Source: a virus
Direction: 5' to 3' (one strand)
Length of the DNA stretch: 39,302 bases
IMG/VR virus record: IMGVR_UViG_3300015263_000928
Coordinates: 1-39,302 of that record
The first letter of the stretch is position 1. Each line of letters starts with the position of its first letter. The translations under genes and the position numbers were made by a program. Shown in pieces: positions 6,347-39,302 of the stretch. The notes below the pieces were generated by a model. It was given only the letters and a program-made list of their open reading frames with translations, had not been told where the DNA came from and did not search any database.

Positions 6347-6798
6347 ACCGGCAGCAACCCAAGACGGCGCGAGTGCGAGAACACGCGCGGTGGCAAGAGC
6401 TGGTCGACGCGCCGCACGGCGCCAAGCGCGCGGCAGCCATCCGGTCTGTCGCGCGGGACCTTGGGCTCACCGTAGACGACGTGCGGAACGCCCTCCGCTC
6501 TGTCACGGGAATCCGCGGCAGGCCGACGGCGCCGCGGTGCTCGCACTGCGGGACGCAGACACGGCATGCTCCCACGCCGATCGCCGTGCCGTGCTTTGGC
6601 GAGATTCCTGGCAGGATCGACCGAATCAAGGCGCTCCGCGAATGGGTCCGTGAAGCGCCGCGCGCGATCACGGGTGACGAGGCTATCTCAGTGATCGACT
6701 ACGCGCTTGCCATCGCGACGGGTACAGACAGCGATGGAAAGCGCCTCTCGCCCATCGACGTGATGCGCCTGGTCACGGAAGACGCGTTCGACCGCTAG
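6343..6798 (+). CDS. HTH protein with a small zinc knuckle (151 aa)
   Basis: ATG 6343 overlaps the upstream TGA (ATGA) and follows a GGGGGAGGGG ribosome site. Residues about 30-55 (SVARDLGLTVDDVRNALRSV) look like a helix-turn-helix. A cysteine pair follows (CSHCGTQTRHAP), then a helical C-terminus. A DNA-binding regulator is plausible. It is the last gene of the rightward block. Its TAG stop lies in the palindrome CTAG (6795-6798), shared with the stop of the gene on the other strand. Confidence 0.7.
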   Translation: MNRQQPKTARVREHARWQELVDAPHGAKRAAAIRSVARDLGLTVDDVRNALRSVTGIRGRPTAPRCSHCGTQTRHAPTPIAVPCFGEIPGRIDRIKALREWVREAPRAITGDEAISVIDYALAIATGTDSDGKRLSPIDVMRLVTEDAFDR

Positions 6799-10420: not shown

Positions 10421-10941
10421 CGCGCCCACCATCTCACTGCAGCCTGAACCTGGCGCTCGCGCGTGTCTGACGCTGGCGACGCTGACGCCGTCATCTGCCA
10501 GCGTGCTGCGTGCCACCTTTTCAACCTCTCCGCGTATTTCGCACACGCCTCGTCGTCGGGATAGCGCCGCAACTCCGACTCAGCCCAGGCAGTGATCCTA
10601 AGCCGCCGCACAGCCTCGCCGATATCACGGCGCCGCTGCGTCTCTGCTGCGAGCCATTCGGCGAACTCCGCGCGGAATTCCTCCGGAACTGCCGCGCCCG
10701 CATGCCAGCGCGGAAGAAATCCGCGGAGCTCGTCTGAGCACGCGAACGGCGGCGCTACTGCAGGCGGCGCCAGGCGCCGCCGCGTGGCTTCGTCTGCGAT
10801 GTATCGACAGACGTCTAGCGCAACCTCGCGAGTGTCCACTCGACAGCCACCGCCCTGCGGCGGCGGCCCTCCTAGCTCGCTCGCGGCGAGCACCGGCTGC
10901 GTTTCAACGGCCCTCTGTTCCTGTCCCCGAAGCTGTCCCAT
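10417..10941 (-). CDS. Hypothetical protein downstream of the replication initiator (174 aa)
   Basis: ATG 10941 has GGGAGG six bases upstream and lies 38 bases inside the initiator gene. The protein is mostly helical and charged (EEFRAEFAEWLAAETQRRRD). Its position after an O-like initiator is that of the lambda P helicase loader, but no ATP-binding or DnaC-like motif is visible, so a loader role is only positional inference. It is coupled to the following zinc protein. Confidence 0.65.
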   Translation of the reverse strand: MGQLRGQEQRAVETQPVLAASELGGPPPQGGGCRVDTREVALDVCRYIADEATRRRLAPPAVAPPFACSDELRGFLPRWHAGAAVPEEFRAEFAEWLAAETQRRRDIGEAVRRLRITAWAESELRRYPDDEACAKYAERLKRWHAARWQMTASASPASDTRERQVQAAVRWWAR

Positions 10942-11944
10942 GTCTTGCCTCCCAGTCCTGTCGGTCGGCGGGCGAAAGGCTCGCCAACCACGCCTGTGTT
11001 TGCTCGCCGAGCACCCCAAGTTTGGGGGGTCGGCATGTGCGCGGGGTACGCCGTGCGTACCGCCGCAGGTTGCTCGCCAGATTCCCCAACCCGGGACGTT
11101 CCGACGGCTCAAGCTTGTTGATCCAGGGGTCTGCCAGCCAAGCGCCTACGAGCCTCTCTACGGCCCGCTCGTACGCTTCCCCGGATGACCCCCCCGCCTC
11201 TACCGCTGCCGCGTCACTGATCGACCGGCAGGCGGGTTCCTCGCGCCCCGGATGGCCGAGCCCGAGCGCAGGGAACCCGCGAAGACGCTCGGCCACCCTC
11301 CAAACGACGAGCCAGGGTTCCCTGATTGGGGACACGTCGGGAGGCGCCAGCCCAGCCGGCTCGGGCGGCACAGGCGGGCGCTCAAAACGATCGCAAGTGA
11401 TCGCGCCCTGGCGCGTCGGCGTAGATCTCTTCTCTTCTCTCTCTTCTTTCTCTTCTTTCTGCAAAACCGAAGTGCCGTGATTACCGGTACTTATGTCAGA
11501 GTAGATCTCGGGTAGATCCGGGGTAGATCGGGGGTAGATCGGTGGTAGATCGGGGGTAGATCGGTGGTGGATCGGGGGTAGATCGGCGGTAGATCGGTGG
11601 TGGATCGGGGGTAGATCGGTGGTGGATGGCGGATGGAACGCGACCCTAATGTAGGAGGGTCCGACTTCGATCAGCCCTGCCCGCGCGGCCTCGTCTAGGG
11701 CTTTCGCCCAATTGCCCCTGTGAGGCCCGTCGATGCACAGGCTACGGCACACGCTGACTCGCCAGTCGCTCCCAGACCACGCGACCAAGTCGCCGCCGCC
11801 ACCCTGCTGCCCGTACGCGAGCGCAAACAGCTCGCTGTAGACAGAGCGCGCGAGGATATGCCGAAGCACGCCCCAGCCCGGGTGACGCACCCGCGGCAAG
11901 GGCACAAAATCGTACCCGACGCGCGCTCTGCCGCCGCGCGTCAT
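10904..11944 (-). CDS. O-like phage replication initiator (346 aa)
   Basis: Start ATG 11944 overlaps the previous TGA. Residues 10-105 (YDFVPLPRVRHPGWGVLRHI and LDEAARAGLIEVGPSYIRVA) look like the winged-helix DNA-binding part of phage replication proteins. Residues 107-150 are four copies of an 11-residue repeat of the type STPDLPPIYPR, encoded by the iterons. After an acidic-basic linker (QKEEKEEREEKR), the C-terminal part ends in a helical region containing LVGAWLADPWINKLEPSE. This is the order of lambda O: DNA-binding domain, origin inside the gene, partner-binding domain. It presumably binds the iterons and recruits the host helicase. No phage helicase or polymerase is seen. Confidence 0.78.
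   Translation of the reverse strand: MTRGGRARVGYDFVPLPRVRHPGWGVLRHILARSVYSELFALAYGQQGGGGDLVAWSGSDWRVSVCRSLCIDGPHRGNWAKALDEAARAGLIEVGPSYIRVAFHPPSTTDLPPIHHRSTADLPPIHHRSTPDLPPIYPRSTPDLPEIYSDISTGNHGTSVLQKEEKEEREEKRSTPTRQGAITCDRFERPPVPPEPAGLAPPDVSPIREPWLVVWRVAERLRGFPALGLGHPGREEPACRSISDAAAVEAGGSSGEAYERAVERLVGAWLADPWINKLEPSERPGLGNLASNLRRYARRTPRTCRPPKLGVLGEQTQAWLASLSPADRQDWEARHGTASGTGTEGR
11426..11632. other. Candidate replication origin inside the initiator gene
   Basis: Twelve tandem 11-bp units (consensus GTAGATCGGGG, variants GTGGATCGGGG and GTAGATCGGTG) fill 11501-11632 with exact 11-bp spacing, so equivalent bases lie near the same face of the helix. A pure pyrimidine run of 35 nt at 11426-11460 sits 40 bp away and is the least GC-rich, strand-asymmetric stretch nearby, as expected for an unwinding element. 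The layout mirrors the lambda origin in gene O. Confidence 0.72.
11501..11632 (+). repeat. 12 x 11-bp tandem iterons
   Basis: Twelve 11-bp units in direct order. The outer units (GTAGATCTCGG, GTAGATCCGGG and the last, GTGGATGGCGG) are the most diverged; the inner ones differ at one or two positions. Because 11 is not a multiple of three, the encoded peptide repeats every 33 bp, giving four 11-residue copies. Confidence 0.95.
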
Positions 11945-12288
11945 GACAGGCTGAGCTCCGTCTGCCTGTCGGCCTGCGTTACGGGTTCGGTCGCAAGGAT
12001 CTCTCCCGTATCCGCGCGATAAAGCGACCACGTCTCGTGTAGCTCGTCGACACTCCACCTACACCGGACGGGCCGCAACTCCCGTTTGCTCTCCACCTCC
12101 GTCGCCAAAACCTTGGCCCTGCGCGTTAGCGCGTCGATCTTCATTTTGAAATCGGCGGCAACGGCCTTTGCCTCGTCGCTGAGATCGTCTCGCTGGTTAC
12201 ACAACGCTGCGAGCTCGGCGCCCTTTACGCGCTGCTCTGCCGGCGTCAGATCCACAAATAGCTGCCGCTCCACATCTGGCCTTTGCAT
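11941..12288 (-). CDS. Conserved-type phage protein with coiled coil (115 aa)
   Basis: ATG 12288 lies six bases after GAGGTG; GTG 12297 is an alternative. The N-terminal two thirds form a coiled coil (GAELAALCNQRDDLSDEAKA). The end VRCRWSVDELHETWSLYRAD followed by TGEILATEPVTQADRQ has the RxDTGE pattern of a common uncharacterised phage protein found near replication and recombination genes. It is coupled to the initiator gene by ATGA. Function unknown. Confidence 0.75.
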   Translation of the reverse strand: MQRPDVERQLFVDLTPAEQRVKGAELAALCNQRDDLSDEAKAVAADFKMKIDALTRRAKVLATEVESKRELRPVRCRWSVDELHETWSLYRADTGEILATEPVTQADRQTELSLS

Positions 12289-12297
12289 CGCAATCAC

Positions 12298-12466
12298 CTC
12301 GTTCTCTGCTGGTTTGTTAAGGCGGACCGCACAGGCCCCTGCGCGCTACGAGAGCAGGGGGGACTGCTCCGGGGCAGCGGGGGCCTGTGCCAGTCCTCGA
12401 GCATGCGCCGCTTGGATGCGCACGCTCGACTCACACCCTGACTGTTCAGGGTGTGAGTCGAGCGTG
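12298..12466 (-). ncRNA. Structured 169-nt non-coding gap after the repressor gene
   Basis: No gene is visible. The gap holds a perfect 21-bp hairpin (12421-12466), a 9-bp outer pairing ACAGGCCCC / GGGGCCTGT (12331-12339 and 12380-12388) and within it a 7-bp stem CCCCTGC / GCAGGGG (12336-12342 and 12354-12360), which partly overlaps the outer pairing. It could be a terminator or antitermination region, a small RNA, or a DNA site. No U-tract follows the large stem in the minus direction. The RNA call is tentative. Confidence 0.4.
12421..12466 (-). terminator. Perfect 21-bp inverted repeat directly after the repressor stop
   Basis: Arms 12421-12441 and 12446-12466 are perfectly complementary around a 4-base loop (CTGT on the plus strand). 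The first arm begins at the base after the repressor TAA. The stem is long and GC-rich, so it should block or slow polymerase and protect the 3' end of the repressor message. The lack of a T-run leaves open a recombination or cruciform site. Confidence 0.55.
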
Positions 12467-12748
12467 TTATCCGCCGTCCGCCTGCGTGGGCGTGGGCTGC
12501 TGTTGCGACTTTCGCCGTACGCGGGCTTGCGCAGCGGCCCACTGCACGGCAGTGACCACAGTAGACGCTCGCATTTTGCGGAGAGTCCGCTCGATAGCTA
12601 CCGCCGTAGCCGTGCCCGCTAGATTCTCCCCCCGCTCCAGCTTCGAGAACTGCGCCTGAGTCACCCCGCACAGCCGTGCGAGCTGTTCCTGGCTCAGTTC
12701 GAGCGACACCCGCGCGCGACGCAGCCGATCTCCCAAGTCGATTTCCAT
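12467..12748 (-). CDS. XRE-family repressor-like regulator (93 aa)
   Basis: A classic HTH_XRE domain: LGDRLRRARVSLELSQEQLA, then RLCGVTQAQFSKLERGENLA, residues 5-44, with the LSQEQLA and TQAQFSKLERG helices of cI/Cro-like proteins. There is no C-terminal peptidase domain, so it would not be RecA-cleaved as lambda CI is. It sits beside divergent promoters and is the first gene of the leftward block, so it probably controls its own promoter and the opposite one. The -10 box ends ten bases before the ATG, so the message is probably leaderless. Confidence 0.85.
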   Translation of the reverse strand: MEIDLGDRLRRARVSLELSQEQLARLCGVTQAQFSKLERGENLAGTATAVAIERTLRKMRASTVVTAVQWAAAQARVRRKSQQQPTPTQADGG

Positions 12749-12757
12749 ATGCGCACC

Positions 12758-12786
12758 ATATAACCGCGCGACTGAGCGCTGGTCAA
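12758..12786 (-). promoter_or_regulatory. Leftward sigma70 promoter of the repressor operon
   Basis: On the minus strand TTGACC (12786-12781), a 17-bp spacer and TTATAT (12763-12758). The predicted start of transcription is near 12751-12750, two or three bases before the repressor ATG (12748), and no ribosome site can fit between. Confidence 0.65.
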
Positions 12787-12795
12787 GCCAACTTT

Positions 12796-12809
12796 TGCTG
12801 CTGGCAGCA
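12796..12809. promoter_or_regulatory. Operator-like inverted repeat TGCTG-N4-CAGCA
   Basis: A 14-bp inverted repeat halfway between the leftward -35 (12781-12786) and the rightward -35 (12813-12818). It is well placed for a dimeric HTH repressor controlling both promoters. Confidence 0.45.
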
Positions 12810-12812
12810 CGT

Positions 12813-12840
12813 TTGTCCTACCTCGTCTCCAGAAAATAAT
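12813..12840 (+). promoter_or_regulatory. Rightward promoter of the recombination block
   Basis: TTGTCC (12813-12818), a 16-bp spacer, then AATAAT (12835-12840), five of six matches to the -10 consensus. Transcription would start near 12847, giving a short leader that contains the isolated iteron copy before the ATG at 12885. Confidence 0.5.
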
Positions 12841-12861
12841 CGCGGACGATTGACGGGCAGA

Positions 12862-12874
12862 TAGATCGGGGGTA
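12862..12874 (+). promoter_or_regulatory. Isolated copy of the origin iteron
   Basis: TAGATCGGGGGTA matches 13 nt of the iteron array exactly and in the same orientation. It lies just downstream of the rightward promoter and upstream of the first gene of that block. The protein that binds the origin repeats could therefore also bind here and affect rightward transcription. Confidence 0.6.
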
Positions 12875-12884
12875 CGTAGTCGAC

Positions 12885-13163
12885 ATGCACCGATTGATCG
12901 AGCTGGCCGCTGAACGGGCGGCCAATAGGTACACGGACGAGCTCCGTTGGATCGTACGCTGCGACAGCTGCGACGAGAACCCACTCAGCGTCACAGCGTG
13001 GGGCGCGTTCCGGCTGTGGGCTATCGGTCAGTGCGGTCGGTTCACCGCACCGGACTCAGGCGCGCGGCGTTTCGATAGGGCGCCTGACGTGGACGACGAA
13101 GACAGCCTCAATAGGCTCGGCCGCGCGGCATGGGCAGCGTTCCAAGCCGCTTACAACGACTGA
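12885..13163 (+). CDS. Hypothetical protein, first gene of recombination block (92 aa)
   Basis: ATG 12885 is the first start after the rightward promoter. No good ribosome site is seen close by, only GGGGG twelve bases upstream. The protein has IVRCDSCDENP in the middle, WGAFRLWAIGQCGRF, and a Trp/Ala helix at the end (LGRAAWAAFQAAYND). No family is recognised. As a divergent partner of the repressor it occupies a Cro-like position, but it has no HTH. Confidence 0.65.
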   Translation: MHRLIELAAERAANRYTDELRWIVRCDSCDENPLSVTAWGAFRLWAIGQCGRFTAPDSGARRFDRAPDVDDEDSLNRLGRAAWAAFQAAYND

Positions 13164-13179: not shown

Positions 13180-13380
13180 ATGCCGACATACGATGATTGG
13201 AAACTCGCCTGCCCTCCTGAGTTCGACGAGAACGTCGAGGACGACGAGGACGACAACGTCGAGCTGCTGATAGACCGCCTCGGGCGGTCTTTGCATCGCG
13301 CATGCGCGATCGATCTGGTCGGGCTGCGCGAAGCGCTCGACATCGAGCTCGAGTCGCGCGCAGGAGATGACGTGTCATGA
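13180..13380 (+). CDS. Small acidic protein (66 aa)
   Basis: ATG 13180 is preceded by a GAAAGGGAAG-type ribosome site. It is very acidic in the first half (EFDENVEDDEDDNVELLIDR), with a helical second half. It overlaps the RecT-like start by four bases (ATGA). Acidic small proteins near recombination genes can mimic DNA or bind a partner enzyme; that is speculation. Confidence 0.6.
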   Translation: MPTYDDWKLACPPEFDENVEDDEDDNVELLIDRLGRSLHRACAIDLVGLREALDIELESRAGDDVS

Positions 13381-14435
13381 CGCGCGATGCAATCCAGCGA
13401 ACCGCGTCCGGGTCTTGGCTCGTAGCTCCCTCGAGCATGCAAGAAGCCTTCAGGTTCGCCGAGTTGCTGGCCGCCTCCGACTTCGTCCCGCGGGAATACC
13501 GAGGAAAACCGGGCAACGTAATCGTGGCGATCCAGATGGGTGCAGAGCTCGGGCTGTCGCCCATGGCCAGCCTGCAGGGGATCGCTGTAGTAAATGGTCG
13601 ACCCTCTGTCTGGGGCGACGTGCTGCTAGGGCTGCTCCTTGCTCACCCAAGCATGGTCGACCTGACCGAGACTCTGGTCGACGGCAAAACCAAAGCCGTC
13701 TGCTCCATGAGCAGGCGGGTCAACGGCAAGATACGGACAGTGGTCCGCGAGTTCTCGGTCGAGGCCGCCCGCCGCGCCAAGCTCTGGGGGAAGGACGGCC
13801 CGTGGACAGCGTACCCCGATCGTATGCTCGCGATGCGAGCGCGTGCGTGGGCAGCGCGCGACCTGTTCGCGGACGTGCTCCGCGGGATTTCGGTGCGCGA
13901 GGAAATGCAAGACGTCGTGGACGCGCGGAACGTGTCAGCGGACGCGCCGAGCGAGGCGCGTCCCGCCGCCGCGCCCGCACAACCAACGCCGGAAGGTCCC
14001 CGGTTCACACGGAACTATCACGTTGTGGAGCTCCGGTCCCTGCCGATGCACTTGGCGTCGGCGGAGCAGCTAACAGAGTACATCTCGTACTACGAGTCGA
14101 AGTTGCCGGAGGTACAGCAGCCGAACCACCGCGTGGCGATCGAGAGAACGATCGCGGCGGCGAAGACGCATCTCGAGTCGAGACTCGAGATGGAGATCCA
14201 AGCGGCCGCAGACGCGCAGACTACAGAGGGCACGGCGACGACGCCCGCCGTCGACTACGACCCCGAGACAGGGGAGGTAGCCTCGGCCGGGCTTCCGCAC
14301 GACGATTTCGCGGCTCGCCTACAGCATGAGGAGTTTGATTCGAAGCTTCCGAGCATCGACACGGGAGATACGAACGACGACTGGGGGCTAAGTGATGAGC
14401 TCCCTGAAGACGGCAGCAAGGAGAGTTCGAAATGA
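13377..14435 (+). CDS. recT: RecT-family single-strand annealing protein (352 aa)
   Basis: The N-terminal 180 residues match the RecT/Bet-like core. PGNVIVAIQMGAELGLSPMA followed by SLQGIAVVNGRPSVWGD (residues 45-81) is the hallmark of the family, and YPDRMLAMRARAWAARDLFA followed by DVLRGI (146-171) its second conserved block. These proteins pair complementary single strands during replication-coupled recombination. The C-terminal third is acidic and likely disordered (DTGDTNDDWGLSDELPEDGS), a usual SSB-like tail. ATG 13377 overlaps the previous stop. No RecE/lambda-exo-like nuclease is found next to it. Confidence 0.9.
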   Translation: MTRDAIQRTASGSWLVAPSSMQEAFRFAELLAASDFVPREYRGKPGNVIVAIQMGAELGLSPMASLQGIAVVNGRPSVWGDVLLGLLLAHPSMVDLTETLVDGKTKAVCSMSRRVNGKIRTVVREFSVEAARRAKLWGKDGPWTAYPDRMLAMRARAWAARDLFADVLRGISVREEMQDVVDARNVSADAPSEARPAAAPAQPTPEGPRFTRNYHVVELRSLPMHLASAEQLTEYISYYESKLPEVQQPNHRVAIERTIAAAKTHLESRLEMEIQAAADAQTTEGTATTPAVDYDPETGEVASAGLPHDDFAARLQHEEFDSKLPSIDTGDTNDDWGLSDELPEDGSKESSK

Positions 14436-14731: not shown

Positions 14732-15420
14732 GCAACACCACCCCAGGCGAACTATTCAACGTCCAGCTGACGGCCGGCGAAGCGGTCAACCTCGTGAGCG
14801 ACCGCCCGGAGGTGCAAGCGGTCGCTGCAGCCGCTAAGGCAGCGCTAGAACTGCAAGGTGAGCTCCCCCCCGCGCTCGCCAAGTTCGTCGCTTCCGCCGC
14901 GGCACGGGCCGTGAAGGACAAAAAACTCCGCTGGCGTGGCGTCTCAGTAGAGTACTGCCCGATATGCGGATGGTCCGGGGAATACCCCAAGTTCAAATCC
15001 GGCCCGCGGCGGGGTAGGCCCAACACAAACAAGCGCCGTAATACACAGTACGGGGTAGATCTCGCCGATAGCCCGGTGACGATCAACGGCTACGCGACAT
15101 TGGGCGGATGCTCGCCCTGCGTCGAGAAGGCGCTGCCATGTCTCAGGCGAGCCCTTTCTGACGTGCGAGCCGAGCTGCCCAGGCAGCTCGCGGGCGCCAA
15201 GTCATATACACGGCACGCCTTGTGCAGGTGCACTTCGTGCGGGTGGTACGGGCACGAGGGGCAACTCGGCAAGTGCCCGACGCTCCTCCCCGGAGGGGTC
15301 TACCCCGGCAAATGTCCGGCGTGCGGGGCCACAAACGAGGTGTTTGGCAAGCGTCCGATTGAGTTCGATAACCGGCAATACGCGCTCGAAGAGCGCCAAA
15401 TAGTAGGGGACCCAGAATGA
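14728..15420 (+). CDS. Multi-zinc-ribbon protein (230 aa)
   Basis: GTG 14728 overlaps the previous TGA, with GGAGGAG just upstream. The N-terminal part is helical (ELPPALAKFVASAAARAVKD). It is followed by YCPICGWSGEYPKF near residue 75, SPCVEKALPCL, then CRCTSCGWYGHEGQLGKCP and GKCPACGATN toward the end. That makes at least two CxxC...CxxC ribbons. The CPxCGW pattern is seen in nucleic acid-binding ribbons. No nuclease motif is evident. The smaller protein at 15794 shares its layout. Confidence 0.75.
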   Translation: MSNTTPGELFNVQLTAGEAVNLVSDRPEVQAVAAAAKAALELQGELPPALAKFVASAAARAVKDKKLRWRGVSVEYCPICGWSGEYPKFKSGPRRGRPNTNKRRNTQYGVDLADSPVTINGYATLGGCSPCVEKALPCLRRALSDVRAELPRQLAGAKSYTRHALCRCTSCGWYGHEGQLGKCPTLLPGGVYPGKCPACGATNEVFGKRPIEFDNRQYALEERQIVGDPE

Positions 15421-38867: not shown

Positions 38868-39302
38868 GTCGATGTCGATAACACCATTCAGCGGAACGTT
38901 CAGCGAACCGCTCTCGAGGCCCGGTTCCGAGCGTCGCTCTCTCCGTAGCCGTTCTGCCCGGAGGAAATGGTCAGCCTCCCCCGTGCTCTTGCATGCCCAA
39001 TTGCGCCGAGAGATCCAGTCGTCCCCGTGGGTAGACCCTGCCACGGGGAAATAGGCCTGTCTTTCCTCGTTCCAAACGAAGTCTGTAGACACAACAGCAG
39101 CGCGGGGCGCCGCAACCTCCCGCCCGCGGGGGCCTTCCGCAGCTTTACGGGATGCGGCGTCGATAACACCATTCAGCGGAACGTTCAGCGAACCGCTCTC
39201 GAGGCCCGGTTCCGAGCGTGGTGGACAGGAACATATGTGGTACCCACAGCGCGAGCATGCCGTGCGATGTTCGAGCAAGCTCGCGGCGGGGGTTTCGCCA
39301 AC
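38856..39302 (-). CDS. 3' part of the 181-aa protein spanning the circular join
   Basis: The rest of the gene that starts at 243 on the circle; bases 39159-39302 duplicate 1-144. This part holds a copy of SEPGLESGSLNVPLNGVID, a middle region with aromatic residues (STDFVWNEERQAYFPVAGST, DDWISRRNWACKS) and a second identical copy of that segment just before the stop IDWTR. Removing one repeat unit and the 224 bp between the copies would delete 285 bp (95 codons) in frame, leaving an 86-aa protein. No recognised family. Confidence 0.75.
   Translation of the reverse strand, partial: VGETPAASLLEHRTACSRCGYHICSCPPRSEPGLESGSLNVPLNGVIDAASRKAAEGPRGREVAAPRAAVVSTDFVWNEERQAYFPVAGSTHGDDWISRRNWACKSTGEADHFLRAERLRRERRSEPGLESGSLNVPLNGVIDIDWTR
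38874..38934 (-). repeat. 61-bp direct repeat, second copy
   Basis: Identical to 39159-39219 (and 1-61), 285 bp apart and in the same reading frame of the join-spanning gene, so it produces two identical 20-residue peptides in one protein. Confidence 0.95.
39159..39302. repeat. Right copy of 144-bp terminal direct repeat
   Basis: Identical to bases 1-144. Its first 61 bases also occur at 38874-38934, so this segment is present once as a terminal repeat and partly again 285 bp away. Confidence 0.95.

Follow-up and report, generated by a model that had tools for sequence, protein, structure and literature searches.

In the initiator genes of lambda (O), phi80 (gp15) and P22 (gp18), the iterons lie in the middle of the gene, following the codons of a DNA-binding domain at the N terminus and adjoining a tract that unwinds easily, and lambda-type O proteins bind single iterons in vitro (PMC7466680). 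The initiator of plasmid F, RepE, binds repeats between the promoter and repE, and one of these operator iterons shares the direction of the oriS iterons (PMC13028717). The open literature that we searched held nothing pertinent on phage initiators acting on early promoters.

We analyzed a viral sequence of 39,302 nt (positions 1 to 39,302 of the IMG/VR record IMGVR_UViG_3300015263_000928), referred to below as the window. The window carries an exact 144-bp direct terminal repeat (1-144 and 39159-39302) and therefore probably represents the whole genome. A third occurrence, at about 38874-38922, covers some 50 bp of the terminal repeat.

An iteron array with an 11-bp period, 11.5 copies and the consensus TAGATCGGGGG occupies 11501-11627 on the + strand, as found with Tandem Repeats Finder; a table of the units and the occurrence of the unit in an unrelated contig (L020, described below) support it. 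The array lies inside a gene on the - strand (10904-11944, likely start ATG at 11944) for a putative replication initiator of 346 aa, a designation based on the translation, on homologues in two relatives and on an AF2 model. As in the lambda, phi80 and P22 genes, the direct repeats are found in mid gene, after the N-terminal domain, and next to a tract that may be easily unwound, here a pyrimidine/purine tract (11426-11460, + strand) that is a candidate unwinding region by its sequence and has a matching purine tract in the initiator genes of both relatives. The units are 11 bp long, non-palindromic and joined head to tail with no spacer, unlike the iterons of the three described genes. The position of the gene also differs: here it is on the side and the strand of the repressor, whereas lambda-type initiator genes lie downstream of the rightward promoter. 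Three units make up 33 bp, so the translated array consists of 11-aa repeats such as RSTPDLPPIYP, and the DNA unit is read in all three frames within the array, which fits a constraint on the DNA or a recent duplication. The purine tract at 11426-11460, a candidate unwinding element in a GC-rich phage, encodes KEE/REE-rich residues and is kept in place in both relatives despite their different iterons.

The putative initiator could not be assigned to a family. PHROG, Pfam and NCBIfam gave no match, nor did tblastn against the phage collection, and the same searches detected no homology to the O, gp18 and gp15 families. In the AF2 model of its N-terminal part, which is of low confidence (mean pLDDT 58), the elements follow the order H-H-E-H-H-E-E, as in a winged helix. 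Foldseek returned weak winged-helix matches for this model, some of them viral initiators (best E 0.02).

Both relatives (IMGVR_UViG_3300046812_000341 and 3300005439_000007) were found via the portal protein, which is 65-68% identical over the alignment. Their initiator homologues are 37% identical over the matched part and are built in the same way, with an N-terminal domain followed by a linker that bears the repeats and by a purine-rich tract, and the block of HTH regulator, 118-aa gene and initiator is syntenic in both. The divergent gene encodes an HTH regulator in the two relatives, whereas here it encodes a 92-aa orphan. The repeats in their initiator genes are weak and differ from the 11-bp iteron of this phage, which is absent from both. 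In neither relative do the linker repeats recur close to the control region: the linker of one (G001) shares no words of at least 11 nt with the remaining sequence, and the linker of the other (G002) shares a few 11-12-mers, none of which was judged to be in the control region (in G002 beyond its first 15 kb). When the initiator and the 118-aa gene were searched in viral contigs, only these two relatives matched. The portal had no match in genome contigs, and the annotated phage collection yielded no related DNA or protein except a portal of 22% identity.

A search with the array pattern did match an unrelated, GC-rich contig, L020 (IMGVR_UViG_3300025030_001271), in which five copies of CTACCACCGAY form two clusters (6625-6723) inside an unclassified 402-aa gene. 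This is the same 11-bp iteron; it lies on the coding strand, oriented with respect to its gene as it is here, and DnaB is encoded directly downstream of the iteron-bearing gene (PF03796, E 2e-72). No stray iteron copy was found in the 11.8 kb of L020 examined, and no control region was seen there. Because the initiators of the relatives share this layout and the L020 iteron lies in a gene upstream of DnaB, the array very probably serves as the phage's origin of replication, with the layout known from lambda O, phi80 gp15 and P22 gp18 and without detectable homology to them; the original prediction, which had called these repeats origin iterons, agrees with this. The strongest support for an origin is the iteron itself, recurring beside DnaB in L020, which suggests an undescribed phage initiator family with CTACCnCCGAY iterons. 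The same pattern search also matched two AT-rich genome contigs, whose arrays of 11-bp period lie in no listed gene: CTACCTCCTAT at 6801-6827 of L021 (Bacteroidota MAG) and CTACCCCCAAT at 4961-4987 of L022 (Nostocaceae MAG).

The control region, which separates the XRE gene from the divergent gene, spans 136 bp, or 0.35% of the genome. The leftward genes are, in order, an XRE-family (HTH_3) regulator of 93 aa (12467-12748, - strand), the 118-aa gene (11941-12297, - strand; phrog_12688, E 6e-7; 42% identity to both relatives) and the initiator. The XRE identity is firm, as judged from its protein matches (Pfam HTH_3, E 1e-9; PHROG repressors). The rightward operon begins with the 92-aa orphan (12885-13163, + strand), which belongs to no family and has a third-position GC of 0.75 like the other genes, and continues with a RecT-like single-strand annealing protein (13377-14435, + strand; phrog_561, E 5e-40). 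A leftward promoter-like site, TTGACC-18-TATATG (12757-12786, - strand; 9/12 consensus positions), precedes the XRE gene, and its implied start point is about at the XRE start codon. The rightward promoter-like site, TTGTCC-16-AATAAT (12813-12840, + strand), also matches the consensus at 9/12 positions and predicts a transcript start near 12847; such a match occurs once in 921 bp, against 0.1 expected. Two dyads are candidate XRE operators with weak statistics: TGCTG-CTGG-CAGCA (TGCTGctggCAGCA, 12796-12809), the only exact TGCTGN4CAGCA in the window, and AATCG-CGGA-CGATT (AATCGcggaCGATT, 12838-12851), which overlaps -10/+1.

An isolated 13-nt iteron copy, TAGATCGGGGGTA, is found in this control region at 12862-12874 (+ strand), 1.2 kb away from the origin array. 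It matches two array units (at 11524 and 11546) exactly and in the same orientation; the identity covers exactly 13 nt, and the flanking bases diverge from the array on both sides. Beyond the array itself, no other copy of array sequence reaches 12 nt anywhere in the 39,302-nt window. All remaining sites beyond the array differ from TAGATCGGGGGTA at three or more positions, and those with three mismatches are at chance level. The match claimed in the original prediction was thus confirmed, and the motif does not recur in many scattered copies, a possibility that the prediction had itself raised. Its placement just downstream of a rightward promoter also holds, with the promoter taken as a 9/12 consensus match: the 13-mer follows the end of this site (12840) and precedes the start codon of the first rightward gene (ATG at 12885), which places it at roughly +16 to +28 in the predicted transcript. 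The window contains 216 GATC sites where 226 are expected, so that GATC is neither depleted nor enriched outside the iterons, and this genome-wide count gives no sign either way of a Dam-type use of the iteron GATC.

An origin-related repeat between a promoter and the first gene is also the arrangement of the RepE operator of plasmid F (PMC13028717), and we regard the repE operator as the nearest working parallel, by analogy, to the site at 12862-12874. The operator in plasmid F is an inverted repeat and controls the gene of the initiator itself, whereas here a lone direct copy precedes a different, divergent operon. The initiator is encoded leftward, on the strand opposite to the rightward operon, and the genes downstream of the 13-mer are the 92-aa orphan and then RecT, so the site does not show autoregulation of the RepE type. 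Four reference phages (lambda, P22, phi80 and TP901-1) had no iteron or rep-gene words of at least 11 nt in their repressor control regions.

We assessed how readily such a copy arises by chance with three measures, and they disagree. Under an order-3 Markov model, 0.13 exact outside copies are expected for the 69 distinct array 13-mers jointly, and 0.0005 for the consensus 13-mer alone. By empirical count, 1.05% of the 13-mers in the genome recur elsewhere, and 26% of comparable 69-word stretches hold at least one 13-mer with an exact copy elsewhere in the genome; a 13-nt exact repeat is unremarkable here. For the third measure, an 11-bp profile derived from the array was used to score sites in any register, and the scores were compared with simulated genomes (Markov orders 1, 3 and 4). 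The 12862 site reached 23.4 bits, the top score outside the array (runner-up, 17.6), and 1.2%, 1.8% and 2.5% of the simulated genomes, respectively, reached this value. We take the profile simulation as the fairest of the three because it rewards the match to the consensus. The original prediction had called the match unlikely by chance; this stands for the consensus score and fails for the mere repetition of 13 nt. The position in the control region adds weight to the match, although the case was chosen after being seen and the profile P and the position figures should therefore not be multiplied without caution. The second-best array-like site, at 15051-15064, was rejected: it has a background score and lies inside a coding frame.

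We favor, with a probability of about 0.38, the explanation that the phage's initiator uses the 13-mer as an auxiliary site, which acts as an operator. The accumulating initiator would fill the array, and replication would start; it would also occupy the single 13-mer in the rightward leader, and this occupancy would damp the RecT operon or, less likely, assist the promoter. We favor this explanation because the copy is unique, matches the full consensus in the same orientation and lies after a predicted promoter and before a start codon, and because the array is very probably an in-gene origin and plasmid F RepE and lambda-type O provide precedents. Binding of the initiator at the 13-mer is plausible on this anatomy of the sequence, on which the proposed role rests throughout. 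Three steps are inferred: that the putative initiator recognizes the repeat, that a single copy suffices, and in which direction the effect goes. Several points argue against an operator. This is one short match, with no copy in the syntenic relatives, though their iterons differ too, and with no such copy in the lambda, P22, phi80 and TP901-1 control regions; 13-nt repeats are common in the genome; the GGGGGT may be owed to a ribosome-binding site; and a lone 11-13-bp site could be too weak for a protein that may bind the array cooperatively. Since neither the relatives nor the reference phages have a copy, the site, if it works, would be local to this phage lineage and no general rule. The fuller proposal, that the initiator doubles as a regulator of the divergent recombination operon via a single leader iteron, with origin filling and the early-gene switch (off or on) read from one protein level, is tentative and in our view rather doubtful.

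The match might also be a coincidence, which we consider nearly as likely as an operator. In that case GGGGGTA would serve the gene at 12885 as its ribosome-binding site, TAGATC would match by chance, and no protein would use the site. A possible ribosome-binding site, CGGGGGT (12867-12873, + strand), does overlap the isolated iteron, and the anti-SD pairing of CGGGGGTA is the strongest among 11 starts sampled (-10.0 kcal/mol, GGGGGU against the 16S 3' end), but the run of G ends 12 nt before the ATG, which is long for such a site. The absence of the site from the relatives and the reference phages agrees with coincidence, as do the 26% of comparable stretches with a copy elsewhere and the Markov expectation of 0.13 for any array 13-mer. 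The copy is nevertheless one of the consensus unit in array orientation (P 0.012-0.025 genome-wide), and it falls within 0.35% of the genome.

Two other explanations give the site to a protein. The initiator might bind it for replication and not for transcription, by titration, by pairing (handcuffing) or as part of a secondary origin. Plasmid extra-origin iterons with such roles are known, for instance incC of F (PMC13028717), and the annotation of lambda lists an 'ice' replication signal separate from the O-gene iterons. This is unlikely here, as loci of the incC and 'ice' type hold several iterons and the 12862 locus holds one, a single site would titrate little against the 11 in the array, and no unwinding tract lies beside the 13-mer. 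The original prediction had also suggested that the XRE repressor might bind the motif; if it bound the 13-mer, and perhaps the array, immunity would directly gate the origin. The regulator is firmly of the XRE family and the 13-mer lies within its control region, but an XRE/CI operator is a dyad repeated in the control region, and the 13-mer is a single copy with no dyad. The 5-4-5 dyads at 12796-12809 and 12838-12851 suit an XRE dimer better and appear to be better operator candidates, although short dyads also arise by chance. Moreover, the XRE gene has no array of the motif beside it, and in L020 the iteron is tied to a gene in the initiator position and to DnaB. We consider this suggestion highly improbable.

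If, as we favor, the initiator uses the 13-mer as an operator, the start of replication and early transcription would share one protein signal in this phage. Such an arrangement is known from plasmids and was not seen in the lambda, P22, phi80 and TP901-1 repressor control regions examined. If the site is unused, the case warns against reading much into an exact repeat of 13 nt when a genome is GC-rich and 39 kb long. The better-supported finding is the origin of 11-bp iterons inside the initiator gene, which an unrelated DnaB-linked phage shares.

Three further segments can fold. Directly behind the XRE stop, a hairpin of about 21 perfectly paired bp (12412-12470; fold about -49 kcal/mol with flanks) lacks a clear T run and may be a terminator that separates the XRE gene from the initiator operon. 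A second large hairpin (12301-12405; fold -52.9 kcal/mol), with its arms on ACAGGCCCC and GGGGCCTGT, is in the leader of the operon that encodes the 118-aa protein and the initiator. Folding is also possible in the predicted rightward leader (12847-12900), where it would place the start codon of the 92-aa gene in a stem formed at the CGATTGA repeats (12847 and 12891).
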